DNA from: Fragilaria crotonensis
Lineage: Eukaryota > Bacillariophyta > Fragilariophyceae > Fragilariales > Fragilariaceae
DNA: 36,356 nucleotides
Direction: 5' to 3'
NCBI GenBank assembly: GCA_022925895.1
Contig: JAKSYS010000637.1
Coordinates: 1 to 36,356, forward strand
Shown here: positions 10,980 to 32,649 of the stretch, piece by piece
Layout: every line of letters begins with the position of its first letter
Position numbering within the stretch: the stretch's first letter is position 1
Translations under genes and position numbers: made by a program
Notes under the pieces: model-generated
What the model was told of the DNA's origin: nothing
The model's database searches: none
What the model saw: only the letters and a program-made list of their open reading frames with translations

Positions 10980-11017
10980 CTGCCAAAAATTTAACACGAT
11001 GATAAGACCTGCTCTTA

Positions 11018-11165
11018 GGGCCGTTCTTACCAAGATGAAATCACGCTCGTTTTTTTTGAATTTTTTGAAAATCGTATCATGCGATAATCTTAGCTAAAAT
11101 ACATGTGTATCGCCTTTCTTACCAAGATTTTTGGTATCACGTGGTATCACATGATACCTTCGCCG
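11018..11165 (+). repeat. Left inverted end of the Harbinger-type element
   Basis: GGGCCGTTCTTACCAAGAT at the outer edge, a second TTCTTACCAAGATTTTTGGT at about 11117-11136, and GGTATCACGTGGTATCACA-TGATACC at about 11134-11159. The preceding TTA (11015-11017) fits a Harbinger target duplication. Confidence 0.7.
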
Positions 11166-11295
11166 TTGAGCCTTTGAGATCCATTACATGGCAGGTATGG
11201 GCAATATCAAATGGTAATGAAATTTCATCTGCGCGACTCCCTCCGACTCGAGTGTACTCTCTTGTGAACTTTTTATTAAAATTCTCATTTCAATC

Positions 11296-12576
11296 ATGAG
11301 CAACTCTGAAGACAATGACTCCTGCAACAGCGGTGACGACGATGAAGATTTGATGGACCTTCTTTTCCTTTATCATGTAACAGATGCCATCTTGCCTGAT
11401 GAGCATGACAGAAGACAAAGGAAGCATAAGTGGATTCATAAGCGATTGAATTGGGCAGAGCATGTAAGAAAGCTGCATCACGAGCAGGCATTCGACAGGA
11501 CGTAGCGAATGTCGTTTGAAGCCTTTAGCACACTGTTAGACTTGCTGAGAGACAACATGACAACTATGACTGCTATGCAGCATGGGGGTAATCACGATAC
11601 AGATCCTGTGGAACCAGAATTAATCATGGCGATTGGTATTCGATGGCTTGGCTGCTGGAGGAAGTTATGTCGATATTCGACATGTTTACGGATGCAGCGT
11701 TCCATCTGTATATCGATTCAGGGACATGTTCTTGGATGCAGTGTTGAACTGCAAAGCGCTAGACATTGTCTTTCCCGACACCGATGAAGATCTGAAGTCA
11801 ACCGCATTGAAGTTTGCCAATAAGAGTTCTGAGAGGGTCATGATCGGTTGTGTTGGCGCAATCGATGGCCTGTTTGTCAAGATTTGTCGTCCCTCTATGA
11901 AGGATTGTGGATACAACCCCCAAGCATATTTCTCTGGCCACTATATGGCACATGGTCTGAACATTCAGGCTGTTTGTGATAGTGATCGCCGTTTCACTTT
12001 CTTTGGTGTGGTTGCTCCAGGAAAATCAAGTGACCAACTTGCTTTCGAGAGAACGTCGTTGCACAAGCGTGTAATGGAATTACCGATGGGGATGTATCTC
12101 GTTGGTGATGCCGCATATCAGGTTTCTGATGTCGTGTTGGTGCCATTTACCCTCAGCGCGAGGATCAGGGACAGGATGCATTTAACTTCTTTCTTTCACA
12201 GCTTCGTATTCGCATTGAAATGGCGTTTGGTTTGCTTCAAACCAAGTGGTGTGTACTGAGCAGGCCTTTGCAGGTCAACTTGAGCACTGCAGCAAAGGTT
12301 ATTGAGACATGTGCGCGACTGCATAATTTTTGTCTTCGTGAAGACGCTGGCATTGACGTCAATGATGAGACTGTCTTGAATGAAGTTATCGTTCCTCAAA
12401 GAGACTCTCCGCTTGGTTGGGGATATCTTCCGACGGTCGAAAAACTCACTCCCATTCCAGGAACATCGCTCATAAGAGATGTGATTATTGATCGCATTGG
12501 TCAACTTGGACTGCGACGACCGACTTACAATCTTCTTGCTAATCGTACTGAATTGTATCACATTGGACTGATGTAG
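11296..12576 (+). pseudogene. PIF/Harbinger DDE transposase, inactivated
   Basis: This is a DDE_Tnp_4-type nuclease that would cut and rejoin element ends. The catalytic residues are visible: VGAIDG (first Asp), LVGDAAYQ (second Asp) and RIEMAFGLL (Glu). The family helix AGGSYVDIRHVYG and the C-terminal ARLHNFCL are also present. The reading frame is broken three times. There is an in-frame TAG at 11503-11505, a +1 shift near 11648 just before AGGSYVD, and another shift near 12150-12165 after VPFT. The N-terminus, MSNSEDNDSCNSGDDDED, is acidic. No active protein can come from this copy as sequenced. It lies 130 bp inside the left inverted end, as expected for an autonomous-type Harbinger element. 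Confidence 0.88.
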
Positions 12577-13153
12577 TAGTTTTTAAGGAATCGGCACGTA
12601 TTGTTGAGAAGTCGTTGTTACTTTCATTACTATCGTACTACTTTACCATTGCATCAGGGAACGCAAATCTCTGGTTTATCCATTTTAATGTAATATTTCA
12701 TATCATAATAATGTAGTGACCAGAGTTTTTATAGAAAATATGTATATTCTACATCATTATGCAAATGCATATCGTGCGTTGAAGATCCAAATTCTCGGAC
12801 ATTCTGTTTCACATAAATATTTGAGTTTAACATCATTTGTTCCCTAAATACTGCATGTTGCACATATTACTTTGGCAGTTTCAGTTCCATTCCTCTTCTT
12901 CTCCATCGTCTCTTCCTTCCATAATCGTGACTTGTGCAGTGAGTCCTATACTGCGTATACTACATACTCACCGTCTTCTCATTATACTCACGCGCCAATT
13001 TTTCCTTTGTGTGATGAGCGTCAAATGCTAGTATTACGACTACAAGGACGAGGCATCATTCTCCCTCATTTTTTTTCTCTACGTTGTCATCTGTTGTATG
13101 CTTTATATTCATTGATTCCAACATCATCCCTTCTGCATTTCCTTGTTAAGAGA
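12577..13153. other. AT-rich spacer between two transposase relics
   Basis: AT-rich sequence with no gene. No second copy of the Harbinger inverted end is found here, which is why the right end is sought at 32.6 kb. The junction with the Plavaka-like element should lie in it, but I cannot place it. Confidence 0.5.
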
Positions 13154-15900
13154 ATGTTTGTTTGCTACAACATGAACTGCTACTCGCAGTTCCGAACTGA
13201 ACGCGGTTTACAACAGCATTTGTGGCACAGTTCTGCCTGCAAGGATTACATGTTGGAACAAAGGGATACTGATGCCGGTATCGAGGCCATTAATAGCACA
13301 CGGCGTCAAGCATATGGAGTTCAATGCACACGCCTGAACTATGAAATGAATGCCGAATTTCCATTGTATGCTCCATATGAAGAATTTCAGTATGATGCAC
13401 CATCCGATGACTTTGATGGTGACGACACATCGGCACTCGATGACATGTACGGCCATTTAGATGGCTTTGCCTCATCGATTTCTGGTCTAGAAAATGTCTC
13501 TCCCTCTGTTTTACATGGAATCATGGAACGCATGAAAGCCAGCGATCGCCAAAGCATCCTGAATTTGCAACATGATGTCGAACACAGAAATATTGTGGAA
13601 CTACTTAAGATTCTGGAGGATGCCCAATGTCCCGACTACATGTTGCAGAAAATTTTGCAATGGGCGTACATTGCAAAATTAGATGGCTTTGACTTCAACC
13701 CCAAAGCTACAACAAGGAAGGCAAATATTGGGTGGATGTACCGGTGTCTGGAACAGTCACATCAACGATTGCCTCATGTGATCTCGACAACTCTCGAGGA
13801 CCAAGAGGCAGCTCAAGACATTGTGTGTTTTGACTTTGGTGTTTCTCTTTGTCGATGCTGCAAGATGATGAACTTATGTTGCCGCAAAACCTTGTGATCA
13901 ATCGGGACGATCCAACGATGTATCATCCATTGGATGGCAAACTTGGGAGGCAAACAGCGGTCAGCGCTATCGTGACCTATACAATCAATTGATCACTCCA
14001 GGAAGAAATCAGCTCCTAGTTCCGATCATTCTGTACCTTGATGGAACCGCCATTGACAGCAAAGGTCACATCGAAATATGTCCGGTGTCGTTCACAACTT
14101 CTTTGTTCACGGAGAAAGTCCGCAGAGACAGTGGTGCATGGCGTGTCCTGGGTTACGTCCCCGACCTGAACCGCGGACGATCAGGTGCCATGAATCAATT
14201 TGCAAACAGCACTTCCGAGGAAGGAAAAGGTAGAACGACTCGTAATTTTCACAAAGTGATGGATGCCATGATGAGGGGCATGGTCGAAGCGCAAGCCGGC
14301 AAAGATTGTCGACTGAAGAAGGTTCCTTTGAAACTTTGTGGGAAGTGGATTGTCGTTGATATCGTCTGTCCTCTGCTCTTCGTCATCAACGATGGCAAGC
14401 AAGGGGATCAACTTTGTGGCCGCATGAATGGACATCACAGTAGTATGAATCGTCATCATCGATCATGCGACTGTCTCTTTGACGATCTTGACAATCCAGA
14501 TGTTGAGTGCACTTTTCTTGATGTCGACACGATCAATGATATCTGTCGCAACGGCTCCGACGACGACCTTCAGGAACTCACGATTTACAAGGTTGATAAT
14601 GCCTTCAACCGCATTCAGATGGGGCAAAACGCACATGGTATCTTTATGTGCGCTGTCATTGATGTCATGCATACTATACAACATGGTATCATCATGTACT
14701 GCCTCGAATCGTTCAAGAAAGGGATTAGCAATGAATCACTGGCAAAGCTTGATGGAATGGCATTTTCCTTTGACAAGACCTGTCGTCAAACTATACGATC
14801 TAGTTTCCCACGGACTGACTTCTCACGTGGAATCACAAACCTCTCCCAGGTCGAATGTTCTGAACAGTCCGGCACTCTCTTCCTGCTTGCGGCCCTTACA
14901 ATGCAAGTTGAAGGATGGCATCTCCTCGAGAGACACTTCGCAGATATGGAGGCTGTTTTGGGAACAATCGAATGCCTTCTGTGTTTTGAGGCTTGGCTGG
15001 ATCAGTTCACATTTTGGGATGTCAACGATACAACTGGTGAGGCGGACAAGGCTGAAGCTGCAATTGCTTCTCTTATGCGCCTCATCGTGAAGTATCTTCC
15101 GCAATTGAAGGGCAATGGGTGGAAGGTTTCAAAATTTCATGAGATCAAGCACATCGTCCGCTTTATCGGTGTGTTTGGTGCACCCGTGGCTACAATGCGT
15201 CCCGTCCTGAGGAGCATCACAAAGCGCATGCAAAACGTCCCGGCCGACGTTCACAGAAGGACATGAACACCATCGACCAGCAGTGTGCGCGCAGAATTGC
15301 CGACACCATTGTTATTGATACCATGCATGGGTTGTTCCAAGAAAGAAATGTTCTTGGGAGTGTCGACAAGAAACGCATTGACACTCCCACTTATCGTCCT
15401 CCGTATGTTGGCATCAACACTGACGGTGACAATCCCGCATTAGAAGAAGGCCGTGGAACAATGTATTGCATCAGGTCGTTTCGAGATCCCGAAAATGGTG
15501 ATCATTTGGTACGAGACGTCAAGTTCACCACGCAAACAAGAGGACCCATGCATTTGGAGGACAATCTTTCGATGTTCATCATACAGTACTATGGCTCCTC
15601 CGACCTTGATGAACGAGGGGAAGGCAGCATCGCATCAGCATTTGTCACGGACGTTGTGTCTTGCAAAGGACGCCGAGGACCAGCCAACCTTCGGTCTTCA
15701 TACGAACGATCTGGACCAGCATCCGACGTCTCAACAGCAACATCATCATCACTTCCCAGCGAAGCACCAACCAAATCCACAGGATTGGTGATGTCACCCT
15801 CATCGAATGGCTCCAGATCGATTCCAAGGTCCACACTGCCCTCATCCGTACAGACACTGGCGAGGCTGTTGTCCTCCCATGATTCCGCGTCATCATCAGG
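13154..15900 (+). pseudogene. Plavaka/KDZ-like transposase, degraded
   Basis: It starts with a zinc-finger-like segment (MFVCYNMNCYSQF, then GLQQHLWHSSAC). An acidic linker and the conserved LLKILEDAQCPDYMLQKIL stretch follow. The core has VPIILYLDGTAIDSKGH, ICPVSF and AWRVLGYVPDL, which resemble Plavaka-type transposases of the KDZ superfamily from fungi and algae. The likely first catalytic Asp is in YLDGT. The C-terminal part has MRPEEHHKAHAK (read across a shift near 15205) and TMYCIRSFRDPENGDHLV. At least four frame changes are needed: near 13840, near 13940, near 15205 and after about 15660. Its 3' end meets the minus-strand gene that ends at 15896. A relic of a related transposase lies on the other strand at 26.3-27.6 kb. 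Confidence 0.7.
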
Positions 15901-17326
15901 CGCAACACTGACCAAGTGTTGGCAGGTATCGAATCTGTACGATGCTGTCCCGCGATACAGACATCTTCCTGGTTTGCGCACCCGGGTGGTTGACTTGCAC
16001 CGAAACACACACATCAACATCACCATCAGAGGGATCAATCACAAGACTCTCGCGTTGGCCAATGACTCGGTGTAGAAATCCGGAGACGTAGTGTCGACAG
16101 CCACGTTTCGCCGACGGAGACGCCTCCAAACCAGCGTTGTACGCCCTGCGAAGATAACGCCTCTCGACCATGGCGTAATCCTGACCCTCCACATGATCAG
16201 GAGCGAGACGAGGCCCCTCCTCATCCGGACATTGCCGAGCATACATGACCCTCTTCATCACCTTAGGGAATGGAAGGAGTCTTGTCGTAAGTCCCATCGC
16301 ATCGGAATTCAGAAGGAAATTTGAGGAACCACGAGAAATTCTCCACTTCCATATCCTGTCCGCGTTGCCATCCCACAAACGGCTAACATAGCCACCTTGA
16401 GCGAATCGATTGTTCTTGGATCCATTACGAACAATCCGAAGCCAATTCATGTCCATGGGAATATGTGTGTTGGGAACGCCAACCGACTCGTGTCTTTTCT
16501 CACGATGACAATAGTAAACACCAGCCTCCGGCAGAACAACCACCAGACATCGATATCGCTTATCATACTTCGCATCGAGGAACTCTGGCATCACCCTCAG
16601 CTTCACAGGGGTGTCCACAACCTCCTTACCCGTCCGACGCCTAGGAATCCTCACCGTGCGTGCAATAACGGCATCCATCATCACAATCTCCAGGTAGTCC
16701 GGTCGCGTGATGACGGAATGGATGTCAACTCCTTCATTCATGTGATCGCACATTGCAAGTGAAACATTTGTCGAGCCATACATTTCCAGGAAAGTGCGGT
16801 GAATGACCTGAACATTCGTGTTCAGCAGTTGAGCACCACCTGGGACACCAAACACAGGGTCGTCAGGGACAGGCTTCCCCTTCATCGCCGACAACACCGT
16901 CTTCCAAGTTTGATGGAATCTGTTGATGTCGGTGCGAGGCAAACACTTCGCTATGACGTTAGCAAACTGAGTCTTCGAAGGATGCCACGCCTTGCGAGAT
17001 ATCGGATCACCAACAGGAGCCTTCCCTTCCAAGTCACCAAAGACACGTGGATTGGAAGAGCCCGCGATGAGATTACGAGCAGTCTCACCAGGAAGGGTCC
17101 GACCACCAAAGAGAACGAGTGGCGGTTCCTTGAAAGGAACCGATCCACCACTTCCAACCTTTCCATGCTTGGAGCTCCGATCCACGTCGTGCTCAAGGGG
17201 CTTCAGGTGCTCAGCACCACCAGCCTTCCTTTTCCTTACTATGTTGAATGAACTTTCATTATTCACAACAACAGATGGATTATGGTGCGAAGGAGAAGCA
17301 CCGTCCTTCCGTTGATTTCCCGACAT
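15896..17326 (-). CDS. Intact gene of unknown function, 476 residues
   Basis: An uninterrupted minus-strand frame. The frame is open upstream to 17470, but the ATG at 17326 (MSGNQRKDGASPSHHNPS) gives a soluble protein; the 48 extra residues would be hydrophobic and are probably untranslated. Residues 1-60 are polar and contain a basic patch, VRKRKAGG, that could be a nuclear signal. The rest looks globular, for example HPSKTQFANVIAKCLPRTD, HRTFLEMYGSTNVSLAMC, KYDKRYRCLVVVLPEAGVYY and RLWDGNADRIWKWRIS. I recognise no family. It is the only long gene in the large element without a stop or shift. It is convergent with the Plavaka-like relic and slightly overlaps that relic's decayed end. It may be a second gene of that element, or host cargo. 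Confidence 0.65.
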   Translation of the reverse strand: MSGNQRKDGASPSHHNPSVVVNNESSFNIVRKRKAGGAEHLKPLEHDVDRSSKHGKVGSGGSVPFKEPPLVLFGGRTLPGETARNLIAGSSNPRVFGDLEGKAPVGDPISRKAWHPSKTQFANVIAKCLPRTDINRFHQTWKTVLSAMKGKPVPDDPVFGVPGGAQLLNTNVQVIHRTFLEMYGSTNVSLAMCDHMNEGVDIHSVITRPDYLEIVMMDAVIARTVRIPRRRTGKEVVDTPVKLRVMPEFLDAKYDKRYRCLVVVLPEAGVYYCHREKRHESVGVPNTHIPMDMNWLRIVRNGSKNNRFAQGGYVSRLWDGNADRIWKWRISRGSSNFLLNSDAMGLTTRLLPFPKVMKRVMYARQCPDEEGPRLAPDHVEGQDYAMVERRYLRRAYNAGLEASPSAKRGCRHYVSGFLHRVIGQRESLVIDPSDGDVDVCVSVQVNHPGAQTRKMSVSRDSIVQIRYLPTLGQCCA

Positions 17327-17439
17327 GATCACGTCACCAAAAAGCCTGACGCAGCACAGTATGAACAACACACTGATGGTGATGTTGTTCAGGGACAGAA
17401 CAACCTTAAAAGCCGGGAAGAGAATCCAACGGAACTTGA

Positions 17440-18430
17440 GGTGACCACTATATGGTGAGTCAATCAACAAGTGGCCCGTCAGAAATCCGTCGCCAGAGTT
17501 GAAACCAAAGGATACTCCAGATGATCACGACGAACACCACTGTATGGTGAGTGCTGCCTGTCAAATCACTCAACAATAGAGCGAGATGACTGTGAAAATG
17601 GGAATGTATCCAACCACAGCTACTACACTTTCGCTTTGTGGTGGTTGCCGCCGCCAAAAATTGTCACTCCAAATGGGAGAACGTTCAAAAGTATAAAGTT
17701 TAAGTATAAAATTCTCCAACAGAGAGGGATGATGACCCGTCACAAAGCAATTGCAATTTTGCTTCGGAATCGTAGCCTGAAACTTGGCAATCCTGATGGG
17801 ACAGCAAGCAGCCGGCTCCTCAGTAACCCGCACTTGAAGATGGGAAACGCAGAACTCCACAAGTTGCAACTCCAAATGGGAGAGCAAGCTTGAGCTTCAA
17901 AACGTAAGAATTCCCAAATGGAGAACGGAGTGTGCAACCTGATCCTCCTGATGGGAGAGAAAGTTTGACCGTGAAGTTCCCTCAAACACAAAAGGGAACG
18001 AAAGAATTTTGCAATTGACACAATGCCACCAATCAGTATTCGCAACGCCAGCAGCCACGTCAAACCGCGTTTTCAACTTTCGTGTCGATGCCGTCTTGAT
18101 GTGACAAGACAACGGCAAACCGCGTTTTCAACTTTCGTGTCGATGCCGCCTTGATGTGACAAGAAAACGGCAATCGGCGTGGACGAAAACGGATCCAAAC
18201 ACAAGGCAACCGTAGTCACTTCTTACGCGTGCTTGCAAACCGTTCCAAACGCAGCCGCAGTCACTTCCAACGCGTGATAGAAAATCCTGTCGATCGTGTG
18301 TTCACGTCCGAAAAGACCGTAGTCAAGAACACACTCAATTCGCAATCTTGCAACTCCTAATGGGAGAGCTTCAACTGCTCGCCAGTAACCGATCAAACAA
18401 AGTCAACTCCTTGATGGGAGGACAGTGATG
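17440..18430. repeat. Dispersed short hairpin motif TCC-N(2-5)-ATGGGAGA
   Basis: ACTCCAAATGGGAGA and variants occur at about 17667, 17790, 17867, 17905, 17940, 18350 and 18404, typically as CAACTCC-x-ATGGGAGAGC. Each unit is a small inverted repeat (CTCC/GGAG). They lie upstream of the minus-strand gene starting at 17326. A second short repeat, CCACT(A/G)TATGGTGAGT, occurs at about 17446 and 17540. I see no coding region here. Confidence 0.55.
18061..18170. repeat. 55-bp tandem duplication
   Basis: CAAACCGCGTTTTCAACTTT begins at 18061 and again at 18116. The copies differ by only a few bases (for example GCCGTC versus GCCGCC). A looser duplication around CAGTCACTTC/ACGCGTG follows at about 18210-18270. 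Confidence 0.85.
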
Positions 18431-19689
18431 ATCAAAGAAACCAACTTTTGTGCTGTGATTCGCAGCGAAAAAGAAAGAAAACCAAGAGAGGGAAACAAGA
18501 TTAGCCCAAGCACTTATATTTGCAGGCGTGTACTATGCAAAAATAAGTAGCATCAGGATGTGTTGTAGCAAGAATCACATGTGGGACTTCGATTTGTTTC
18601 CTTAAGTAAAAAGAGTAGCAATGTGAATATTAAGTGATTAACTATGTGTGACCTTATTTTGTGCACACTACATACAGTCGTGCACAAGCTCTTACGTCGT
18701 GACGTACTTAAAGTAACAGTTCTTGCACATCATGTTTGTTGACAATTTATCAACAACAAAGACTTAAGTATAATTTATAAGGCAAAAGAATATAACATGT
18801 GAATCAGAAAGTAGCAATAGAAGAGAGTAGTAACACGGTATTCAACATTGAGTGACATGTATACTCCATCTACCAGTTACATGTGTTACTGCAAAACAAT
18901 GATAGTGACACATATGTAACGGAAATAGGAAACGTAGAACGTGCGTACTGACAATACCGATTCGTACGCATAGTATCAGATGTACTTGTTTACACATAGT
19001 AGTAGGTAATAGTAGCAGTGATAACCATGCTGTCATTGGTTCAAGCTTATATAAGTGTACGTAGCAAATGTGTACTACTGCAATACAGTAGTACATACGG
19101 AATGCGGAGTTATTGGTATGATAGTACATAAGCTAATTACTACTTAGTATGTGTTTCGTCGTAGTTATGCGACAAACACCAGTACACAAGACCAAAAACG
19201 ATAACAGCTTTGGTACAGCGTACCATTATTTTTGCTGTTGTGTACCAGCAAAGCATGCGCAGCATTGTTCAAGCAACGTCATAGTTCATAGCACTACATT
19301 AATGGTGCAGTTTCAAAATTAAAAAAAGCGTCATGCAGTAATGAACAAATTTCAACGTACGAAGATAAACAAAACAGTGACATATACTGTACAAGCAGTA
19401 TATGCAGCGTGTAGTTAGATGTTTCGGGTTCAAACATGTAGATGTATACTTCATGTTTGAAATAATAGTTAATTTAAATAAAATGTGGTACATCTCACTG
19501 CTAAGTATTCAAATACTTGAAATAAATGACTACAACATGTATAAATATGAAACACAGCTACGTACATTGTCATGTAGGGTGTACGTAGTCAAAGCTGGAA
19601 CGACTCCCATAGCAATAAAATGCAGTGAAGCTTAACATAATCACAACACACAAGGCACTAAAAACGCATATTGAACACCATTGTCAACA
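18431..19689. other. AT-rich stretch without genes
   Basis: About 1.2 kb of AT-rich sequence with many TAGTAC/GTACTA words and only short chance ORFs. No inverted ends that I can pair. Confidence 0.5.
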
Positions 19690-21249
19690 ATGGCAACAGC
19701 GAAGGGTAAGAAAGCAAAGGCAAGGAAAAGGGGAACTCAATAGTTAGAGGTGTGCTTGTAGCAAACAATGCAAACACAGGAAGCCCTGGTAACAACAGGA
19801 GGGTAAGTGGCCATAGAAATGGTGAAATTGAGTCACCATCTGTACTGGAACGACTTGGACAAAGTAATTCTCAGGAGGCAAACGATGGGGGCGGTTTGGA
19901 AAATGCACGCGGTTCTCCATACAGAGATGCTGCATTGACCACTCCGTCGTCCACTCCTACGGGAGGGGACGCCCTTCCAATTGGAGGGGTTACCAACGCA
20001 GCCGTGAGAGTACTACAGCAACAATGTAGTCTTATGGCAGGACCACAGATTGGTGACAGATTGGGAAATGGTGGACGCATTTCTACATTCAGAGATGTTG
20101 CAACAACAACCAATCTGATGGAATTGCACAGACGACAAGTCCAAGTAAGGAAACGCCCCTAACAATGACAACTACTGGAAACGGCGGACCACTACGAAGG
20201 GTTGTTGGTGATCAAGCCTCCCAGAATCGTGATTTTCCATCGGCAACTACTGATGGGTTAATGGAGGAGGTTGACGAGAATACCCCACCTTACATCATTC
20301 ATGCTGCACTTGGTAGGGATGAAAATGACGATCTGATGGACAACACAGAAACACATCTGTCTGGGAAATCTCTGTCATACAGGAAGGCCAGACATTGCCA
20401 ACAAACACATGTAACGCATCGTATACAGAACTTGGTGAAGAAAGTCATCTTCAGAAAACTCAAGTTTGTGACCAACGATGCTCTGTTCTGGAAGGCAATG
20501 AAGGTTGTCATTGAAGCTGAGGATCCTGTGGAGCAAAGTCGGTTCGTGAAGATATACAAGACATGTGTCCTTCAGAGTCTGAACACAAAGAGGAGTACAT
20601 GTGAACAGGCGGGGGCAAAGATTGCTAGGGAGCTCCTTATTGCAAAGAATCATCCTATTGGGAGTCGAGAGCCCCCATACTCCGTGGAGACGCTTTGCAA
20701 GTTGAGAAGGTCAAGAACTGATCACGAGAGAGAGGCATTCCACTGGTTTATTGGAGAATTTCTTGAGTGCGTCTCTGGTAGGAGGGTATGGGGAAGGAAA
20801 AAGTTTACCCACAAGGTGTCGGATCCAATGGAAAGGGGAAGTGCAGAGAAAGTTGTGACTGTGTCAGATGAAGCGTTTGCCATTCTTGTTTATGAAAACT
20901 ACATTGATAAGTGGTTGCGGAAATACACCTGTGAGCAACAAGGGTACAGGGTGAGGACACAAATGAGATTGAGAAGAGAATTAAAGGAAGATACACTGCA
21001 GGAACAACAACACGAGCAGCAAACATAATGTACGGCGGGTGGAGTGATGAGGGCCTCATCCGATTCAATCAGTTGTGCAGATTAGTGGCGATTGACCGAC
21101 AGAATGAAAATGCAGCACAGATGGAGGAACAGGTTCTTCAGAGGCTGAGAGAACAGAGGTATGGAAATGGTGGAAATAATGACGGCATGGAACAAACTGA
21201 TGAAACAATGCTGCAATGGGAGCCTGTGGAGGCATTTTGCGAATTGTAG
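19690..21249 (+). pseudogene. Paralog A of an unrecognised family (KFVT / DEAF / GWxxEG), broken
   Basis: The N-terminal part (about 19690-20300) is polar and disordered. An ATG at 19690 would need a 38-nt GTAAGA...ATAG intron (19706-19743) to join the frame at 19752. The core runs in frame from 20165: VKKVIFRKLKFVTNDALF, then VTVSDEAFAILVYENYIDKW, ending at 21028. The last conserved block, GRYTAGTTTRAAN then GGWSDEGLIRFNQL, is in a different frame up to 21249, so at least one shift lies near 20950-20980. A stop and a possible ATG overlap as TAATG at 21026-21030. Another frame change lies near 20160. Function unknown. The same blocks recur in paralogs B and C. Confidence 0.6.
19871..20160 (+). 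other. Disordered N-terminal region of paralog A
   Basis: Gly/Ser/Thr/Asn-rich sequence with no domain, ending RRQVQVRKRP before a stop at 20160-20162. The core of paralog A follows within 5 bp in another frame. Confidence 0.4.
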
Positions 21250-21781
21250 AATAGGAGAAAGTTCAATGCAAATCTGTCACCGTATAAATATGATTTGTCG
21301 CTGCAAAGTTGTTACATGTAATAATTTAAAGACGGATGTAGAATTGCAATATTGCGTATGAATAAAAAATGGCGCAATGAAATATAAATGATACAGAGCT
21401 GCACTGGACTCAAAAAATGTTGTTACTTTGGGTCGGCAAATGGTACACTTTGGTGCAGAAAAACAAAAAATTGTAAATTGTAAAAAACTGTACTACAGTT
21501 CACAGTCAAAATTATTGTAGTGTGCAAAATAGTTACAGTTGTGTACTGGACTCAAAGAAATAAGGTACAGCGTAAATTTTATTTTACAGTGTAACATCTG
21601 CAGCCTTCTGATGTAGTAAGAAGAAGGCGTTGTTGCATGCATTGAAACCTGGATTAAAGAACATAGCTTTGTTGTGCCATATAGTGTGACATTGCTGAAT
21701 TCTGCTACGGTTACCAACCGCTGTCGCATAGCTGCAGAAGGTAAGGAGGTGAGGATTTGTGTGTTGATATCATTGCGGTGC
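21250..21781. other. Spacer between paralogs A and B
   Basis: AT-rich and gene-free. The phrase TGTACTGGACTCAAA-type (GCACTGGACTCAAA near 21399, GTACTGGACTCAAA near 21543) occurs twice in the same orientation. Confidence 0.45.
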
Positions 21782-21984
21782 ATGATGTCGTCGTCCCCAG
21801 TGCGTCAGAGCACAAGATTACTAAGGGGTAATGCGCAAGGTGCAGCACAAGGGAACGTGAATACTCGGCGGAACCAGGCAAGACCACAACCATATCTTGA
21901 TGAGTCACCACGTACAGCAGCAGCAAGAGTAACGCGCAGCAGAGTAGCACCTGGAAACAGTCGGACAACTCCTGTGAGCACTGA

Positions 21985-22180: not shown

Positions 22181-22758
22181 AGTTTGGGTGCTACAGGATA
22201 CCAGGTCCATCAGCACCTGATATCCCTGCAGGAGGCCGGCGTTCCGTGCTGCTCCACATGCCAGTGCCCGGCGTGTTCCTACTACTACTGCTGCGCAAGT
22301 CCAGCACCAGGAGCAGCAGCTGTTGCTACTGCCCGTGCCTATGCAGGCGTAGGCATAAATGCTGCACCAGCAGCAGTTATGCCTGCAAACCTTGGACAAG
22401 ATTTTGTTGGTGAGGCGCTTCTTGCTCAACGAGGGGTGGAGTTGCTATACAAGGTGGCGGAGCAACAAGGAGGAGGCAAGGCGGACAAGGAGGACAACGC
22501 AACACTGTTGCAAGAAGTGCGGATAAGTTTGCAATTCAAAAGTGTGTGAAGAATATGTGTTCCCAAACAAAAGTTTGTGACTGATGGCGACCTAGATTTC
22601 AGCAACAACGAAATGTCCATTTGTCGATGCATGGCGGCGGTGCTAGATGTAGACAATCGTAATATTGAGAACTGGTGGGAGACTGCAAGGAAAACAGTGA
22701 AAGAGTCGATATAGGCACAGGAACAACACAATAAAGAAGATAAAAACAGTATTCCAAG

Positions 22759-22846
22759 GTAAGATGGTTGCGAGCGTCCATTTCAACCATTTAATTCTGA
22801 ACTTCTAACCCTGAGTGTGTGCTGCCTTCTTCTCCTCGATACACAG
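22759..22846 (+). other. Probable intron, 88 nt
   Basis: Donor CAAG/GTAAGATG and acceptor GATACACAG. Removal joins a frame ending TVFQ to DIILPRKGRFNEV. It shows that this gene family is spliced nuclear material, not a processed copy. Confidence 0.65.
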
Positions 22847-23739
22847 ATATTATACTGCCAAGGAAAGGCAGATTTAATGAAGTCTTTAGCATGGACCGAA
22901 TCATAGCATTGAGAAATGACGCTTTGGAGGGTGAAATCTACATGGACTTATTGGACGACTTGCTGAAGACTGTGGTTGGAGCCACCAAATTCAAGGAGAA
23001 TAGGTGCGAGAAACATCTAAGTGAGTGGTTCACTGTCACAGATGAGGCATTCCTCCTCTTGTGTCTTGAAAATTACTGGCAACAATGGCATTACGAATGG
23101 ATGGTTAACAGAAATGGACCGCCCGCCGACGAACCTGCACCTGAAGTCATTAACCCACGGTACACGGGCAAAACAAGGCACCAAGCGAAGTTGGTCAAGG
23201 GAAGGAATGGAGCGTTTCAATAACCTGGCTGTATTGGTCTATAACGACAGAAGGGAAAGGGGCGAAGAGTTCGATCAGTGGTTCCTTCGGGAAATGATAC
23301 AATCATACGGTGATCGTAATCGAGATGCAGGAAGGGAAAACATCGAGGCAGAAGTTGTCAACGCAGCACCCACAATTGTGTATAATGAATTCAATATGCA
23401 GCTCCTGATCGCCCATGCACAGCACCAACAACTGCAACCACCAGCTCCTGAAGAAGATGATGTCGACAGAGTTCAAGAAGCCGTGTAGGTTCGTGATACC
23501 TGGTAGTACATCTAAGGGTGCCAAAACTAAGTACCATAGTTGATACAAGAATTTTTTCTCATATGTATTGGAAAAATTTCAGGATTCCCAAATGTAGTTC
23601 AGGATTCCTGAAGTTTTGTTCAGGTTTATTTGTTTAGTTCAGGATTTGGAAGTTTGCAGTTTCCTCATTTTTATGAAGAAAATTTTTCACTCCTGAACTA
23701 CTGCAGTATTATTCCTGAGCTTTTTTCTTCATTATTTCG

Positions 23740-24740
23740 ACATCAATAAAAATGCTGGTACTGTAGGCGCTGTTTACGATGTACTGGAGCATGGTGTATT
23801 GTAGATTGTGTATTGTGTACGCGGAGTGTTGCTTCTGTGCGCCATACAGTATACGAGTACAGTAATACAGCTTTTTACAGTTTCTGACATACGGTATTTG
23901 GTGCAATATGCGGTGTTCTATTGTTTACACGCATTTCATGGTCTACTGTATACGGTCTACGTTCTACCACGGTATGGTAGTATGGTTTATCGCGTCTATC
24001 GCACACTGGGTTATATGGTAGTAGTACTACGTATGATATACAAGTACTTGTAGTCCGAACTCCGGAATATGAAGGATGGTGGTGTATTGTTTGTATTGTG
24101 TACCTGGTACCGTCGTATGCTTGTTGTGCATGGCACCAGGCGTTGCGGTGTATCGTATGGTGTGCTGCATGGTTTTGTGGCGTATCAGCATTAAGTGGCG
24201 TAGTGGCGTATGTACTACAAGCCCTGGTATGGTTCATACATAGTACCGTACGTTGTTGTGCGTTGTGTGTTGTTTGTGGTACGGAGTCCATCCTACTGGA
24301 GCAATACTGTCAGTTTTTATGGTGTACTCCGAGTACTTGTACGTCGTATGGTGAACTACAGTTCTTGTGTAGTGTACTGTCTATGGTGCAGTATGCGTAT
24401 GGTATGGTGGCATACGGTATGATATGGCGCGGTTTATGGTGTCGTGTACGGAGTACTACTACCAGTTACTCCGAGTACTGTTTATTAACGGAATGGTACT
24501 GGTACGGTGCTTCATGTAAATGGTAAGGTGGTGTACATGTATTGCGTACTGTAGCTACTCGTATGACAAATGATGCCAAGTGTCTGCGCGTTTTATGATA
24601 CACCGTTCTTGCGCATGCGAGAGCGATCCGTAGAACGTAGAACGGCATTCCGTACTACGAGTACTTCTGGTTTGTTGTTTGTTCGTAGAGAACATGATAC
24701 TACGCAGTAGATCTTACGTAAAAAAGGTATTGTAGGTGGA
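23740..24740. other. Gene-free G/T-rich stretch with GTAC and GTAT words
   Basis: About 1 kb in which the plus strand is strongly G+T-rich and built from words such as GGTGTA, GTACT, TATGGT and GTATAC. It is not a clean tandem array. The open frames in it (for example about 24100-24525) are Tyr/Cys/Val/Trp-rich and look like composition artefacts. Confidence 0.5.
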
Positions 24741-25028
24741 ATATGTCATATACTGATTTTTCTTTCATCACCAATACCAGTGCATGCTGTACATTTCTAC
24801 TGGCTTCGAAAATGCAAACTTATGCAGCCATGGTATTGCGCTTCGTAGAACCCTACCTGTGAATTTTTGTGCGAAGTATCACATCAATTCGTTCGTTGTT
24901 TTCTGAACTCCACCACTTGCTGTCACCCCACATTGAATACTCCATTCTTCGGCACCTTCGCCCCTTCTTCCTCTTCCCACCAAGCACACTTTGCTCTCCT
25001 TGTTGGTGAGTTGTTCCTGGTGATTGTT

Positions 25029-25065
25029 TGAGTGTTGATTGATTTGTTCAATCAATCAACACTCA
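25029..25065. repeat. Perfect hairpin, 16-bp stem
   Basis: GAGTGTTGATTGATT, the 5-base loop TGTTC, then AATCAATCAACACTC, plus one more outer T-A pair. It lies in a gene-free part of the inner element. Confidence 0.9.
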
Positions 25066-25139
25066 TGATGAGTTTTTGAGGTGCTCCTGTTGTGTGGGTA
25101 CTGCCTCCTACGTACAGTACTCATTTCGGTATCACCGAT

Positions 25140-25400
25140 CACCGACCGCAGTACTGTAGTACTGTAGTACTTGGAGTATCTTTGAGGCTACGGTGAACCA
25201 GTACTACTACTCCAGTACTCCAGTACACTCCTCCACTGTGATACTGCTGCATTGTACAGTACTGTGTTACCTACAGTACTCATGACAATGGACTGCAGTA
25301 TTCGGAGTAGCCTGAGGCTACGGTAGACCAGTAGTACTTCTACTGATCTCCCCTCTCTCACTATGACACTGCTGCATTGTACAGTACTGTGGTGATGGCA
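25140..25400. repeat. Diverged tandem duplication, period about 125-130 bp
   Basis: GAGGCTACGGT(G/A) starts at 25184 and 25314. ACTGCTGCATTGTACAGTAC starts at 25243 and 25368. Both copies are rich in CAGTACT words. Confidence 0.75.
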
Positions 25401-26288
25401 TTGTACATCAGCAGTACTAGTACAGCTGCTGATGTTCCTGTCCAGTTGAAGACAAAGATACGTCATTGTACTTGTCCTGTGGCACCTTCATCCCGATGTA
25501 CTTCTACAATACGCTGGCAGCAGTATGCTGCTGCTTCATCGTATTGGTTACAGGCAGGCTGGTACTATTGTTCTTTCTTGTTGTTGTTTTGCATTCAATC
25601 TCACATTGTCCCGCCTTTGTTCTGCTTTTTCTTTTAGGAGGCTGCTTGTGACAATGAATGTTGAGTGCCTCATTTTGTTGTGCTTTGATGGAATATGTGC
25701 TTCTTCTGTTTGTGTGCTTCGATTGAGCATGTAAGGCAATCAGACCTTCAGAATCTTTATTCGGTCACCTGCGAGAGATTCTCATTGATATTGATATGAG
25801 TGAATCAAACCAGGTTGATCTACCGGTACAGGTTCTGTTTGTCAGTTGTCTGTTTGCATGCTCAAGAGTTGTATACACACAAGCCAGTTGCAAGATCATT
25901 CTTATTTAAACCAGCAAAATGTTGCACAATCCATCACTGTCCCAAGTCTCTCGCAAACCAGCAGTTGCTATGAATGAGGTGTAAATTCATCCCCCGCCCT
26001 GTCCAGGAAAAACAGCCAACAAACAAATCATACACATTTATTCCAGTACGGAGCAAAGCATCAAAAAAGTTGGAGGGGAACTGGATGATTGCAAAGCTCC
26101 TCAAGCTACTGATGCCACTTCCACTCCCAATCCATGCCAGCAAAAAACCAAATCTATTTTACGTGCCTATGACAAAGGGGCATTTGACTCACACAGATGG
26201 GCTCCACATTGGGAGGTGTAGTAGCCATCGCAAAGTACTGTTGGATGGAACTTGTGGCCAAAGCCAAATTCACATTGTCGAAATAATC
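25401..26288. other. No gene recognised
   Basis: Short ORFs on both strands without family features. The minus strand may hold further remains of the Plavaka-like relic that lies just beyond, but I cannot identify conserved blocks. Confidence 0.4.
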
Positions 26289-27570
26289 TCAAATGGATCG
26301 CATACTACTCGCGCTGCTTAATCCTCCGGTAGCTTTCACGGAAAATGGAAGCATTGGCTGAGAACCAATTTGTTGTGACAGCTTATGTGTGCTGATCATG
26401 ATTGCCAATATCTTGATGGAGTAACTTCTGCACGTGAGTTTTGTACATGTTGATGAGTTGTCTTTGCACTTCACGCTTGGAAGCAAGCGTCTGCTGTGCA
26501 TGAGTCCGCGCGTTGTGCCCATGGACTTCTTGGTTTTGCTCTTTTCAGAGTGTAGTATACAATCTCTGTCAGAAGAAGTGAATGATGCTCGCTTGCCACA
26601 TTAAGCTTTGTCAAGTAAGGTCATCATGGGCACTGTGTGATAAAAGTGTTGTCGCTGATGCCAACACCACTCCTCCTTACTAAATCCTCCCATGAATGAC
26701 TGGTCCCACCGATTTGATTCTGATCCAGAATGAGAGTCCTCATGGTTGGATGGTGTGCATCTGGCTCCAACACAACATTGTCCATATCAATTGCAAGGTT
26801 TTCTGCAGTCATAATGCTTGGATTTTGCAGCAAACTAAGCAACTGTGAAGCGAAATCAAACATATCACATCAGATGGAGAGCCATGATCTACATCCACTC
26901 TTTGTACAAAGGGAAGCAGTTTCTTCCCATTACAAACTGAGTTGATTAGGGCATCAACGTTTTGGCACGTGAGAGTCCACCCACTGGGTTGTAAGAATAA
27001 TTATCAGCAGATGCAGAGCGTGCCCAGTGTCCACTCCAGAACTTCACCAAAAGTGTAGTCAGGTACATTGACATGGTCCAGGATCTTGAGGAGAGAAACA
27101 GTCCATTTCTGATCGGTAGTACACATGAATGATGGGGCTTCCACATCTTCATCAAGTGCAGAATTGGTACAGGTAAGAATGTTTGGGTCATTACTTAACA
27201 CGGACAAATCATCACTTTTGTTGCAGTCCTCAATATCCTCACAAGAAGTGCTTTCAACAGAAGGTTGTACTGCAGAAGGTTGTCTGTGCCAACAAAATCC
27301 ATGCAGGGATCATTCACCAAATGTCACCTTAGGGCAGCAGGCCTTTTGTTACTTGTGCATGTGACATTCCCATCCTCATGAAGACGGCAGACGGTGTGAA
27401 ACAGAAGCACTATGTGTTGCTGCAAGGTGTGATTTCTTCACAATGAAATTATAGCACGATGTTTCTATCAATATGCTGTGTATATGCTGCTTGATTGGAA
27501 AATGGTTTCTTGTTGAACTTCAGGCAGAAGGGGTTTTGACAGAAGAGCAGGGTGCCTTTGAGGACAACAT
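26289..27570 (-). pseudogene. Relic of a second Plavaka/KDZ-like transposase, N-terminal part
   Basis: Read on the minus strand in several frames, the order matches the transposase relic at 13.15 kb. First comes a zinc-finger-like piece, FCQNPFCLKF then KPFSNQAAYTQHIDR (about 27450-27560). Next is SLLKILDHVNVPDYTFGEVLEW (about 27010-27110), which parallels LLKILEDAQCPDYMLQKILQW of the first relic. Then YSYNPVGGLSR (about 26950-27000) parallels FDFNPKATTRK. Last is FDFASQLLSLLQNPSIMTAENL (about 26800-26863). Stops and shifts separate the pieces. No catalytic core is evident, so only the front part survives. Whether it belongs to the inner element or was inserted into it is not clear. Confidence 0.6.
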
Positions 27571-27640
27571 TTTGAAGAGGACAAGTGAAGTGAACATGAG
27601 ATGTCAAAAGATGACAGGGCACAGATTCACTGCACACCAG

Positions 27641-28066
27641 TGCATGACATCGGGGCCCGTTAGCCGCAGCCGGCCGGAAACCGCGGGCCGGCCGTGATTT
27701 TGGGCGGCTGCGTATTTCTGTCCCGGCCGGTCTCCGGTCGATTCCTATCACTTTTTGGCCAATCGCGGGTAAAGGGCGGATCACCTGTCATTTTTCACGG
27801 GTACGGTGGTTGCTGACAACGTACTGTCAGTACAGTACTGTGTACTATGTTTGTACTATGTACTGTACTTCCTAACAACTGCGGCCGGGTCCGGGTACGG
27901 GCAGGGACAGTCCGGCTGCGGCCCTGTGCGGGCAGGGACTGTCGGACTGCAGACGGGTACGGCCAGGCTCACATATTGGCATACGGCCGGATGCGGCCAA
28001 AAGCCTCTGCAAAAATTTGGCCGGCTGCGGCTTCGGGTACCGTTTTATCTCAGATGTCATGCACTG
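27641..28066. mobile_element. GC-rich foldback element with 11-bp target duplication
   Basis: The termini are TGCATGACATC (27641-27651) and GATGTCATGCA (28053-28063), with further inverted blocks GCCGCAGCCGGCC (27662-27674) and GGCCGGCTGCGGC (28019-28031). CTGCACACCAG flanks it directly at 27630-27640 and 28067-28077. The interior is far more GC-rich than its surroundings and repeats GGCCGG and GGGCAGGGAC(A/T)GTC words. A target duplication of this length and long inverted ends are typical of Mutator-like non-autonomous elements, but the family is inferred. A 3-bp discrepancy (CTG, 28064-28066) remains at the right junction. Confidence 0.65.
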
Positions 28067-29286
28067 CTGCACACCAGCACAGAATTTTGGGAAAGCATGC
28101 ATTCAAATTGTACATGTACTTTTGGTACATTTTTGGTGTATGTAAAAAATGAAGGGGGGTGTGGTATGAATTCAAAATTCAAAACCTCTGCATGAATGTG
28201 TAGAACCTACCTACGAACTTGGTACTTGGTACAAAATTCAAATGGTCGCAAAATACTATCCCACAAAAAGGATTTCCAGTGTTCAAAATTTGGTGCACCA
28301 TCAAAGTTTTTCCAACAACAAGCAAGCACATACGACCATGGCATCAATGCCACAGGAAACAGCAGCAGGCATCACTGCCTTAAAGCCCAGCTCGTCTAGG
28401 AAACAAAGGAGAGAGTTCATAAAAGGCGTGGAACGAGTGACCACAGATCCCAATGATCTGATTCAAAGTGATAACAAGGAGGAGGAGGAGTTGGTGCCAC
28501 GGAAAATGGATGCAAAACAAGGATGGAAGCATGCATACGGAAATCCACCATCCCTACCTTCAACTATTAAAGTCATGGAATCAAGTGACAGCCAACTAAC
28601 ATCATCGGTTCCAGGGCTAAGCAGCTTAATGGACATGAGCATGACGGAAATCTCAGAAGAGAATCAAATCAGTAAGATCAAGACTTGCATGAAAAAACAC
28701 GTGTTCTCTATTTGGAAGTTCTATCAAAAAGACTATCATTCTCATTTCAGTGAAGATGAGAAAACACTTTGTGGCTTTATCATGAAGTACACAAACATTC
28801 GAGGAACCAAAAACTGGTGGCTTGGGATGCGGAGAATAGTTGTAAAACACACACTGATCTTCGGAACAATGCAATAAAAAACATGCAAATGAAATTCAAA
28901 GGTGAGGATTTGAAGTGGGTGTACTTTGCCAAGTCCCGAGCATACTCACACCCACTTGCTGTCAACATCAAACACCTTGCATTCAGGGGATTCACTTCCC
29001 ATTTAGGAACATATGGACACAGCCTGTACAGTGGATGCAAGGATGAAACCAGTTACCTCCTCAAGATGAGGGATAACATCTGCTACAATGCCCAAATCAT
29101 AGACACTCACTCGGCAGCAGCAAGTGGAATAACATTATCAACAACATGGAGAACCACTGTGCAACAACTGACAGGAAAGTATGGAGCAAGAAAATCCTGT
29201 CCATAAGTAATGAAGCATTCATTTTGCTGTGCCTGATCAACTATGGGAAGAGGTGGTTTGCCGAATTAGTAAAGACAGAGAAAATG

Positions 29287-29367
29287 GTAAGTTTATCCGA
29301 GTGGTTTGTCACAGAACAAACAACAAGGAACTAACTGACTTGCTTTGTTATCACTTGTTGGAAACAG
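29287..29367 (+). other. Intron, 81 nt (paralog C)
   Basis: Donor GTAAGTTT, acceptor GGAAACAG, after a whole codon (AAA ATG). Confidence 0.75.
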
Positions 29368-29408
29368 CAAATCGATACATGGACAGATGAGGACAACAAA
29401 ACCTACCC

Positions 29409-29480
29409 GTAAGTTACACTATGATAAGTGAAATGAAAACCACATCCTAAATTCTGACCAATCTTTTCTCATGTTCGCAG
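29409..29480 (+). other. Intron, 72 nt (paralog C)
   Basis: Donor GTAAGTTA, acceptor TGTTCGCAG with a pyrimidine-rich tract before it. It separates a 41-nt exon from the last conserved block. Confidence 0.75.
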
Positions 29481-29824
29481 CCACCACTTTACACATTCTC
29501 CAGGAACAAGGGTGCTCATGATAATGGGGAGGCTGTGATTGGTCACAGGCTGGAATGAGGAAATACGATGAATTATACATGGCCATCAAGAATGATAGAA
29601 AGAAATCAGCCCAAACATTCAACCAGGAACTACTAAAAATGTTTCTGTCGAAGGAAAAAGGAGTCTGGCCAGGGGTCAGGAAACAATTTGATGACAAGGG
29701 TAAGAAATGCCCACACAAGTGCATGGATGTATTTGACGACAACTCTGATGAGGAGGATGATAACTACTCCGGGCATCTTGCTTCTGAACTTATCTACAGT
29801 GAAGTGAAAGTGGAGGCAGTTTAG

Positions 29825-30757
29825 AATTGAGCAGACACTTAGTATGAATAGAAGAATGCTTCATCAAAGCCACACGAATAGGCACATTAACACTAATATC
29901 CAACAAAAGTTAAAATGCGTGACATGTATGTCAATTATATGAACAATGTCAGCTCAGAACTACTGTGGTGATTACTTCATACACACTACACAGCAAACTT
30001 CTTCTTTTCGGATGTCAAATTCAGGAATTGAAATTCATGATCACAAATGAAGAAGTGGTATAGTTCAGATATTTCGAGTCCCAAAGCTCAGGAATTCCAC
30101 TTGGAAGCTAGTTAAAATGAGTCATTGAATTTCAGGATTTGAAATTTTGGAGCTCAGGAATACAAAGTATGAGATCCTATGCAAGAGATGAAAAATTCAG
30201 GAAAAATAAATTTCCGAGTTCAGGAAATACGAGGAAACCCACTTCATACACATGATGTACAAGCTCTTTAGTCCCAAGTTTTTACCTGTATTTTAGGTAA
30301 ACATTATGAGCAAAAAAACATCATATCAAAGATGATTGGTTTTTCATATCCAAGAGCCGACTTGGTTTTGGCACCCTTAGATGTAGGACTTTAGAAACAA
30401 TAACGCACAGTACAGCACTGAAACAGATTGCAACCCCCCAGAATTGGTCGTAGCAGCAAATTGAAACCGAAGAAGAAGTTGTGAATATTTCTCAATCAAC
30501 TATGAATAAAACTGAGTACGACATAACAAATATTTCTCTACATTTTGTACATATTAATTTTGAATTGTAAATAAAAAAGTAGAAACTTGTAAATATGAAT
30601 ATAAGAAACATTCGGTAAAACATTACAGAAACATTTACAAAGTCTTGTAAATTAAGATGTACAAATCAGAGATTTGCACTCCCTGATGTGATTAATAACA
30701 ACATAAATGTCACTACTTTCCTTTTCTTGTCATGCGACGATGTTTCCAAAATGTTGT
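29825..30757. other. AT-rich 3' spacer and subterminal repeats of the inner element
   Basis: It holds the TTCAGGA subterminal repeats and the right inverted end at 30365-30385, then about 370 bp of AT-rich sequence before the minus-strand gene that ends at 30758. No gene seen. Confidence 0.55.
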
Positions 30758-32430
30758 CTACGTCAAGTCGCTTTCTGAGAGCAACCCAAAGATCTCATCG
30801 CGTTTCCTTTTGCACAACGTGGTGATCTCGCGCTTCAAGTTGACGACGTCAGAGTTGTCAGAATCATACGTTGCTTCATTCTTCGCAGCATTCAACTCCA
30901 ACCGTGTTTTCTTCAATCGTCCCTTGTACTCGGAGAATACTTCTAACAAATCTCGCTCGCAACGTGGAGCTGCTGACTCTCGATTCGTCTTCGCTTTTTC
31001 AGCCTGTGCCTGATGAAACGCCACCAGAGCATCCGCGAGTTGTTTCTGCGCATTGTTTTTGTCCTCGTCAACCGCCTTCTTCATCAATGGATCCTTCTTT
31101 TGTCTTGCCTTTTTACGAGCTGAAGTACTAGTATCACTAACGCTGATTCCACCGCCCTTCTCGTCGTCGTCTTTACTAACGCGATAACTTTCTCGAAAGG
31201 CATTTGAAGGAAGCTCAGCAACAGCGAAGTTCAAAAGGTTCGGAGCCTCACTAAGCCAGAGGTGATAATAGAATAAAAAATACCTTGTCCCGACGAAGTT
31301 TTCGAAATCAGAATGCGAACCTGATTGCTTATTCCTTCGAAATGCAATTTGATAATGATGATTGATGTATTCAAGAATCTCTTGAAAATCATTTGTCGTC
31401 AACGCAGAATCAAATTCCGAAAAAGCAATATCGCGATGTATACCTGTTAGTGTCCAAAACACATGGTCGGGAAATGCAAACATAGCAGCATCATCATTGT
31501 TTTCATCAAGGTATTGGCTGAGCAAAGCTTCGTATACATGTCGGTGTGGACTTGTACGACTGTCCAAATTAGCCTTGGTTGGGGGGCGACCAAGGTCCAT
31601 CACAAGAGAGCGATTTGTCTGGCACATGTATACATTGATAACACGAAAATATGTGTTGATACATGTCACAGCATCAGGTGCGGTGCCTTTCGATTTCTTC
31701 TTCTTCCTCCGTTTCGTGACCGAGGCCAATCCCGTTTCATTCGTCGTCTTCATTTCGTCGTCATGGTCGCCAGCATCCTCATCACTGCCATGGTCGTCGT
31801 CGTCCTCATCCAAAGGCGGCAGCCGCACTTCTTCACCAACTTGATATTCTACGTCCTCATGATGCTCAACATCCTTGTTCTCGGCATTTGACTTGCTTAA
31901 ATTACGTTGGCGAGGTGCTGTTGTTGGAGTGGGGTCGTTGCCTTCTTTTGATGATACTGAGAAGTAGGAATCAGAGTCGTCATCCTCCTTGTACATATTG
32001 TTCTTTAGGGTCTCCCGCATCACTAGATTCTTTAGAAGTCCCAACGTGGATTCTTTATTCTGGTTCTTATACCCAGACACCTTGAACCGAACACAAATCT
32101 GACGTAGAAGGGGACTGTGCACTTAGAGACCGGCAATGCCTGATCATGACAATGTCACCACTATCGCTCACTTTGAAGTCTCGATCAACAACCAACTCCT
32201 TGACAAAACTTTCAATCATGTTGAGCTTTTGCTTTGATCCCGGACAGGAGAAGGGGTTATAGTCTCTTGTGATTGCATATTTGATGACATGGTTAACAAG
32301 GCAGAAGTGCGCTTTGTACTCCAGCAGTACTACGCATACAAGAAGTAGGATCTGCTCCTTCTTGTTTGAGCTCGTCCAAGCGCCAAACAACGTTGTGCAT
32401 CATCATCCTCCAAGATCATGTTTTTCATTT
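30758..32430 (-). pseudogene. Candidate Harbinger accessory DNA-binding protein (Myb/SANT-like), frame-broken
   Basis: The main frame (32122 to 30758) encodes about 454 residues. It has an acidic linker, a strong basic patch (TKRRKKKKSKG), a globular region and a Lys/Glu-rich coiled-coil C-terminus (GRLKKTRLELNAAKNEATYD). The globular region contains INHHYQIAFRRNKQSGSHSDF, then FVGTRYFLFYYHLWLSEAPN. The upstream 5' part continues in another frame to about 32390 (LLEYKAHFCLVNHVIKYA, SFVKELVVDRDFKVSDSGD). One base too many near 32105 breaks the join. Harbinger elements usually carry a second gene for a Myb/SANT-like partner that binds DNA and imports the transposase. Position next to the right inverted end, orientation towards the transposase and composition fit that role. 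I see no definite Myb helix motif. Confidence 0.5.
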
Positions 32431-32459
32431 AGAAATATGTCATGTGATACTCGAGAAGA

Positions 32460-32649
32460 TTAGCTGGTATCACGTGATACCTTTTAAGGGGGTCAAAAAG
32501 GTATCACAAATCGGTATCATGATACCAATATGATACCGGTCACAACCCGGATATTCGGAGTCGACACGTGATACCAACGGCTATAAACCCGGAGATGATA
32601 CCAAAAATCCGAAAAAACCTCTTGATAAGAACGACCCTAAGAATGGCCC
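32460..32649 (-). repeat. Right inverted end of the Harbinger-type element
   Basis: Read inward from 32649 on the minus strand: GGGCCATTCTTA, GGGTCGTTCTTATCAAGA, then ATTTTTGGTATCA, GGTATCACGTG, GGTATCATATTGGTATCATG and GGTATCACGTGATACC at the inner edge. It repeats the left-end words in inverted orientation. The outermost 12-mer is duplicated, so the exact terminus is either 32637 or 32649. Confidence 0.7.

Follow-up and report, generated by a model that had tools for sequence, protein, structure and literature searches.

The window analysed here is the whole of contig C599 of the diatom Fragilaria crotonensis (GenBank JAKSYS010000637.1; 36,356 nucleotides), and between positions 11018 and 32649 it very probably carries a nest of cut-and-paste transposons three layers deep. 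That is, a PIF/Harbinger element forms the outer layer, an 8.8-kb element lies within it, and relatives of the latter lie within the 8.8-kb element in turn, with the inner families being probably CMC/RAG1-like and a TET-like gene present among them (Table 1). The outer boundaries are inverted ends 21.6 kb apart, as the first-pass annotation of this DNA had proposed: GGGCCGTTCTTACCAAGA on the left (11018-11035) and, inverted on the right from 32649 down to 32620, GGGCCATTCTTA followed by GGGTCGTTCTTATCAAGA, with the words ATTTTTGGTATCA and GGTATCACGTG present inward of both. These ends are not chance matches because the 18-mer of the left end, at up to one mismatch, occurs nine times in the genome (62.1 Mb in 881 contigs) vs. 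once for a reversed control, and exact inverted pairs of it lie 3.6 kb apart on contigs C163 and C525. The two Harbinger genes were also where they had been placed. The transposase near the left end is a remnant spread over two frames (11624-12576), both pieces of which match DDE_Tnp_4 (PF13359; E-values of 1.8e-13 and 7.9e-09) and so bear out the assignment to PIF/Harbinger, and an accessory open reading frame (ORF) of 454 codons lies near the right end on the minus strand (30758-32122). The second ORF of classical PIF/Harbinger elements is Myb-like; the accessory ORF of the window had no Pfam match at E-values up to 1.

Complete copies of the Harbinger exist elsewhere in the genome without the interior seen here: L001 (3,609 bp; its two genes stay open over 434 and 536 codons) and L002 (3,644 bp), the copies on C163 and C525, represent subfamily A, and L005 (3,540 bp) represents a second subfamily, B. 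The window aligns to L001 at 11017-12651 and 30689-32644, and the two alignments overlap by 2 bp on L001; therefore, an 18-kb insert interrupts the element, with TG repeated at both of its sides (12650-12651 and 30689-30690). The Harbinger family resembles other PIF/Harbinger elements in having a transposase of the DDE_Tnp_4 type and short terminal repeats, in the presence of a second ORF, and in its length of 3.5-3.6 kb. Duplications of 3 bp, TTA or TAA, flank three of the four complete copies read (TAA/TAA in L001, TTA/TTA in L004 and L005); the window ends, TTA and TAA, do not match. The window copy differs from other such elements in being built from two subfamilies and interrupted by 18 kb of other elements. 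A short derivative of subfamily B, 542 bp long and with TTA on both sides, was also found on contig C51 (L004:4249-4790).

Table 1. Elements of the nest and its immediate left neighbour in the window, with remarks on ends and copies
Feature	Position	Strand	Remarks
MITE-like repeat (miniature inverted-repeat transposable element), ~636 bp	10382-11017	.	Right end CTGCTC-TTA abuts the Harbinger; many copies stop there or within a few bases
Harbinger left half, subfamily A	11018-12651	+	95.0% identity to L001, 97.7% to L002
18,037-bp insert	12652-30688	+	Ends CATCAGGG..CCCTGATG; 41-bp inverted repeats, TG outside both; expanded PlavakaB-like 8.8-kb element
8.8-kb element, left part	12652-15633	+	99.1-99.5% to five of eight near-full-length copies, 96.0-97.5% to the other three
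12.3-kb element, right 5,980 bp	15634-21613	+	End CTTCTGATG at 21613; 99% to C160
TET-like gene, N-terminal remains	15911-17524	-	~1 kb with the HxD..H part missing
8.8-kb element, continued	21614-23508	+	Of nine copies compared, eight align unbroken (97.5-99.1%) and L013 in two pieces (98%)
Third element, 6,875 bp	23509-30383	+	Ends CATCTAAGGGTGCC..GGCACCCTTAGATG, TA on both sides
8.8-kb element, right end	30384-30688	+	End matches and copies
Harbinger right half	30689-32637	-	A-to-B switch, accessory ORF, right terminal repeat 32620-32637
Putative A-type repeat remnant	32638-32649	.	TAA + GAATGGCCC; agrees with the end of the A right terminal repeat at 11 of 12 bases

The first-pass annotation had left two alternatives, a giant cargo-bearing element or a heavily nested one, and it is the second that the interior bears out, the parts of which have separate ends and duplications and recur at other loci. 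A single giant Harbinger, in which all 21.6 kb would move together with the interior as its cargo, would account for the Harbinger-type termini at either side and for a transposase and an accessory gene each lying close to one of them. However, we give this explanation practically no credence: in L001 and L002 only 3.6 kb separate the left end from its right partner (the arrangement named in advance as telling against it), the interior has boundaries of its own, one of the inner junctions has a single exact match in the genome, and the two ends belong to different subfamilies.

The last point follows from diagnostic sites, at which L001 and L002 agree and both differ from L005. In the left half (together with some flank), 211 of 217 sites are of type A, three of type B and three other, whereas in the right half 224 of 261 are of type B, 35 of type A and two of neither. 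Apart from scattered sites, there is a single switch from A to B, at 30892-30905, within the accessory ORF and 202-215 bp to the right of the insert plus its duplication. The Harbinger of the window is a chimera, A on the left and B on the right. The simplest account of it is probably that a B copy landed in a TAA within the right terminal repeat of an A copy, followed by recombination between the two, which would have left the putative A-type remnant of Table 1 beyond the B terminal repeat. Alternatively, separate loci could have given rise to the chimera through gene conversion or template switching, with TAAGAATGGCCC being a mere host target. The right flank of L001, TAAGAATTTCC, itself begins TAAGAAT, so that such a sequence can occur naturally beside an element, yet 11 of the 12 bases fit the A terminal repeat as an inserted B copy would leave it, which would also explain why TTA stands on one side and TAA on the other; hence, we regard this alternative as unlikely, though by no means negligible, and favor insertion of B into A followed by recombination.

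The outer flanks had been read as a reconstructed target, CTCTTAGAG, and this reading survives in part. CTCTTA does stand on the left; on the right, two extra T precede TTAGAG (GGCCC-TT-TTAGAG), and the expected TTA beside the inner right end is in fact TAA. Further, CTCTTAGAG is only partly a host target because the CTC on the left belongs to the separate ~636-bp repeat, the left end of which seems incomplete compared to the copy in L003.

The insert begins and ends with inverted repeats alike at 34 of 41 positions. In the genome, the left end is matched 14 times and the right end 13 times, and both occur on 11 contigs, where they are spaced 8.7-8.85 kb apart in eight cases, 5.3 kb on C818, 12.4 kb on C30 and 18.0 kb in the window; three left and two right ends are unpaired (on C249, C839, C614 and C552). 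Among the copies of this family with both flanks readable, eight of nine (including that on C30) have 2-bp duplications, and in the window TG/TG flanks the insert; L007 runs off its contig and falls outside this count. The spacing and the duplications show, therefore, that the window copy is an 8.8-kb element made larger. Relative to L006, the window retains three blocks of this element (the 8.8-kb rows of Table 1), the first of which includes a putative CMC-type transposase gene (tblastn matches at 13157-15640, in several frames).

Between the first and second blocks lies the right part of a related, 12.3-kb element, for which C340 (12,256 bp, flanked by CA/CA) and C134 (12,262 bp, GA/GA) provide the full form. 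The segment also matches C340, C134 and C161 at 88-93% identity, in pieces, and at its right end CTTCTGATG is followed directly by TAGTAAG of the 8.8-kb element. In the window, the 12.3-kb element lacks its left part and the 8.8-kb element lacks 3,657 bp. We considered this segment as a simple insertion with a duplication of its own and rejected that description: the right end is genuine, while the left side resembles a deletion junction. The third element, between the second and third blocks, is flanked by a TA duplication (its left copy at 23507-23508), is absent at the matching place in L006, and is represented by further copies, 97-99% identical, on C521, C549 and C34, that on C549 also with TA/TA; its coding content consists of a transposase remnant only (26768-27273, minus strand) and an accessory gene (28170-29206 by the narrower bounds). 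All three inner elements have such an accessory gene at the right end (21620-23485 in the 8.8-kb, 19692-21246, plus strand, in the 12.3-kb and 28170-29647 in the third element). These genes appear to form a fast-evolving family, weakly alike at E-values of 1e-4 to 1e-19, and none of their proteins matched a Pfam family above the cut-offs.

It could be argued that the 18-kb composite is a mobile unit in its own right, in which the nested elements are carried along between the 8.8-kb element's terminal repeats, since neither 41-bp end is missing and the duplication around the composite is perfect. However, the junction of the 12.3-kb with the 8.8-kb element has one exact match in the genome, the window itself, and one with two mismatches, on C76; therefore, there is no sign of the composite moving as a unit. 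Moreover, its transposase lies in several frames and would need to be replaced by the enzyme of a relative. We consider mobility of the composite very improbable, and favor successive insertions into an 8.8-kb element.

From the observed ends, duplications, copies, crossover and junctions, we infer the following order of events. An A-type Harbinger of about 3.6 kb would have inserted first, into the TTA at the end of the MITE-like repeat. A B-type Harbinger probably followed, into a TAA inside the right terminal repeat of A, and recombination between the two would have produced a single chimera, with the terminal 9-12 bp of A left beside it. The 8.8-kb PlavakaB-like element may then have inserted 202-215 bp to the left of the crossover, duplicating TG, and its 12.3-kb and 6.9-kb relatives would in turn have inserted into it. 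Finally, a deletion may have removed the left part of the 12.3-kb element together with the middle of the 8.8-kb element.

The inner families probably move by means of a CMC/RAG1-like DDE transposase. In an alignment of ten rows, D312, D427, H678 and H682 are invariant and E702 is conserved in at least 90%, with the C(2)C motif being complete in just four, and the first 13 fold matches of a transposase model, albeit a poor model, are all RAG1 or RAG-like. The transposase of a second family matched no Pfam family above the cut-off at E-values up to 1. For comparison, Kojima 2025 (PMC12730594) places Plavaka in the CACTA/EnSpm-Mirage-Chapaev-Transib group, gives PlavakaB the termini CATCA..TGATG and duplications of 2 or 3 bp, reports TET/JBP dioxygenase genes in DNA transposons of three fungal lineages, and assigns all TET-carrying Plavaka families of fungi to PlavakaB. 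Measured against the PlavakaB of that account, the 8.8- and 12.3-kb families have the same termini, and those of the 6.9-kb family (CATCT..AGATG) differ at base five. The 2-bp duplications (eight of nine in the 8.8-kb family; two of two, C340 and C134, in the 12.3-kb family; two of three, the window and C549, in the third) also agree with what is given there. Of the CMC transposase motifs (D, D, C(2)C, H(3-4)H and E), the two D and H(3)H are invariant and E nearly so, with C(2)C mostly incomplete. The differences from that account are the host, a diatom here vs. fungi, and the motif of the TET-like protein, HxD here vs. the HxE of the PE type listed for Plavaka.

In both the 8.8-kb and the 12.3-kb family, the TET-like gene, on the minus strand, occupies the interval from the transposase gene to the accessory gene of the right end. 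The copy in the window is dead because the part encoding HxD..H (~1 kb) is gone; this part is present in four others, on C160, C340, C134 and C161. Genome-wide, the gene has at least 89 matches, grouped into at least 74 places, many of them fragmentary or with stop codons, although the copy on C137 (L032), for example, has an open frame; 79 of 444 candidates were scored, so the counts of places are minima. In further flanks read on the expected side, the transposase was present in three of four cases (C829, C466 and C285), with none within 5 kb on C63, and on C109 the flank on the opposite side contained the accessory gene.

A structure predicted from 13 paralogues reached a predicted template modelling score (pTM) of 0.79. 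With this model, Foldseek placed TET2, CcTET and CMD1 at ranks 1-11, and VIA-align placed TET2, NgTET1, CcTET and CMD1 at ranks 1-16 (Z-scores of 13.1-17.2), followed by AlkBH3 at 11.4. The residues of the iron-binding HxD, H527 and D529, are present in 13 of 13 rows, and H589 in 12 of 12, the thirteenth row ending before it, for an HxD..H spacing of 62 residues. In the best structural Z-scores of the predicted fold, a double-stranded beta-helix, and in the HxD..H motif, the protein appears to share the characters of TET/JBP enzymes such as TET2, NgTET1, CcTET and CMD1. Based on fold, motif and co-residence, its most likely role is the oxidation of methylated bases in the element that carries it, which would relieve the silencing of that element. 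A shared fold does not establish the substrate, and the gene might instead encode a 2-oxoglutarate oxygenase that does not act on 5-methylcytosine (e.g., AlkB/FTO-like, or with RNA or protein as substrate). AlkBH3 and FTO do match the model as well, with Z-scores of about 11. However, TET2, NgTET, CcTET and CMD1 hold all of the first 16 ranks, at least 1.7 Z above the next, and TET genes have a precedent in Plavaka and other fungal transposons, according to Kojima 2025 (PMC12730594). Hence, we take this alternative to be a real possibility, although the less probable one, and favor a TET-like activity on methylated DNA. Matches to the C5-methyltransferase domain (PF00145) in the genome numbered 13, on contigs that may include contaminants. 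An alignment search of viral contigs for the TET-like protein gave 19 pattern matches, none of which was confirmed.

It is important to note that several observations weigh against the picture of a nest of CMC/RAG1-like, TET-carrying elements within a Harbinger. Some concern the duplications: the flanks of the window Harbinger do not match (TTA on the left, TAA on the right), the presumed outer duplication of A is imperfect (TTA vs. TTT or TT-TTA), the Harbinger copy L002 is flanked by CTA/TTA, L008 of the 8.8-kb family (on C526) has no 2-bp duplication, and the C521 copy of the third family has flanks, GG/CG, that are not repeated. Others concern the transposase, for which the model is of low quality (mean predicted local distance difference test, pLDDT, of 49.8 and pTM of 0.42) and no Pfam family scored above its cut-off in a search with E-values up to 5. 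Finally, the TET-like protein found no relative by Pfam or PDB sequence-profile searches, differing in this from the TET/JBP enzymes, with which it shares 5-14% identity in the aligned structures; just 15 of the 74 TET-like places listed have a match to one transposase query at a distance of up to 6 kb; and the third family showed no TET-like match in C521 or the window.

The nest as such is ordinary genome archaeology, yet it is unusually legible, each layer having boundaries and near-identical copies, and most having duplications. Its lasting interest lies in PlavakaB-like elements that carry a TET-like gene in a diatom, and it raises the question of whether such elements can remove the mark by which they are silenced. 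Iyer et al. 2014 reportedly also deal with TET/JBP genes and with the transposons of fungi. Searches of an open-licence library, including passages of PMC12344493, PMC12633428, PMC11244446 and PMC9998398, gave no account of diatom transposons that carry TET genes. We tentatively suggest, at somewhat less than an even chance, that the diatom hosts a large, recently active PlavakaB-like group, many members of which carry a TET-like dioxygenase of their own and use it to free the element of silencing methylation. If this were true, PlavakaB and TET would be partners in fungi as well as in stramenopiles, whether through an ancient association or through transfer, and transposons would be a plausible source of the TET/JBP enzymes.

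Contig C651 offers a view of a related locus. It matches the window at 97% identity over 5427-7444, 94% over 7443-7890, 81% over 9484-10061 and 67-80% over 32735-33941, with no blastn match to 10062-32734 at E-values up to 1e-4. At the position of the nest, C651:1-7500 (L023) has a copia-like sequence (RVT_2, E-value of 3.6e-5, below the Pfam cut-off), and three other frames of C651 gave no Pfam match. No precise empty Harbinger site was obtained; C651, which may be an allele or a paralogue, suggests absence of the nest there, without the exact target.

The same comparison revealed two smaller differences outside the nest. A tandem duplication with a 156-bp unit (7287-7598; 98% alike), within a RING/Sina-type ORF, is represented by a single unit in C651, and about 1.6 kb of the window (7891-9483), in which clear element ends were not seen, is absent from C651, where a frame of 651 codons spans the site. 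Farther to the left, 3912-5042 encodes a PhoD-like phosphatase together with a fibronectin type II domain, a pairing that, to our knowledge, is unusual in an alga. Elsewhere in the genome, silicon-transporter domains (PF03842), which by themselves would make a diatom the probable host, had 19 matches, 18 of them above the cut-off, compared to 14 control genomes in which one had a match and none a match above the cut-off, and on contig C97 (29749-33762) three consecutive silicon-transporter domains occupy a single open frame of 1,456 codons.

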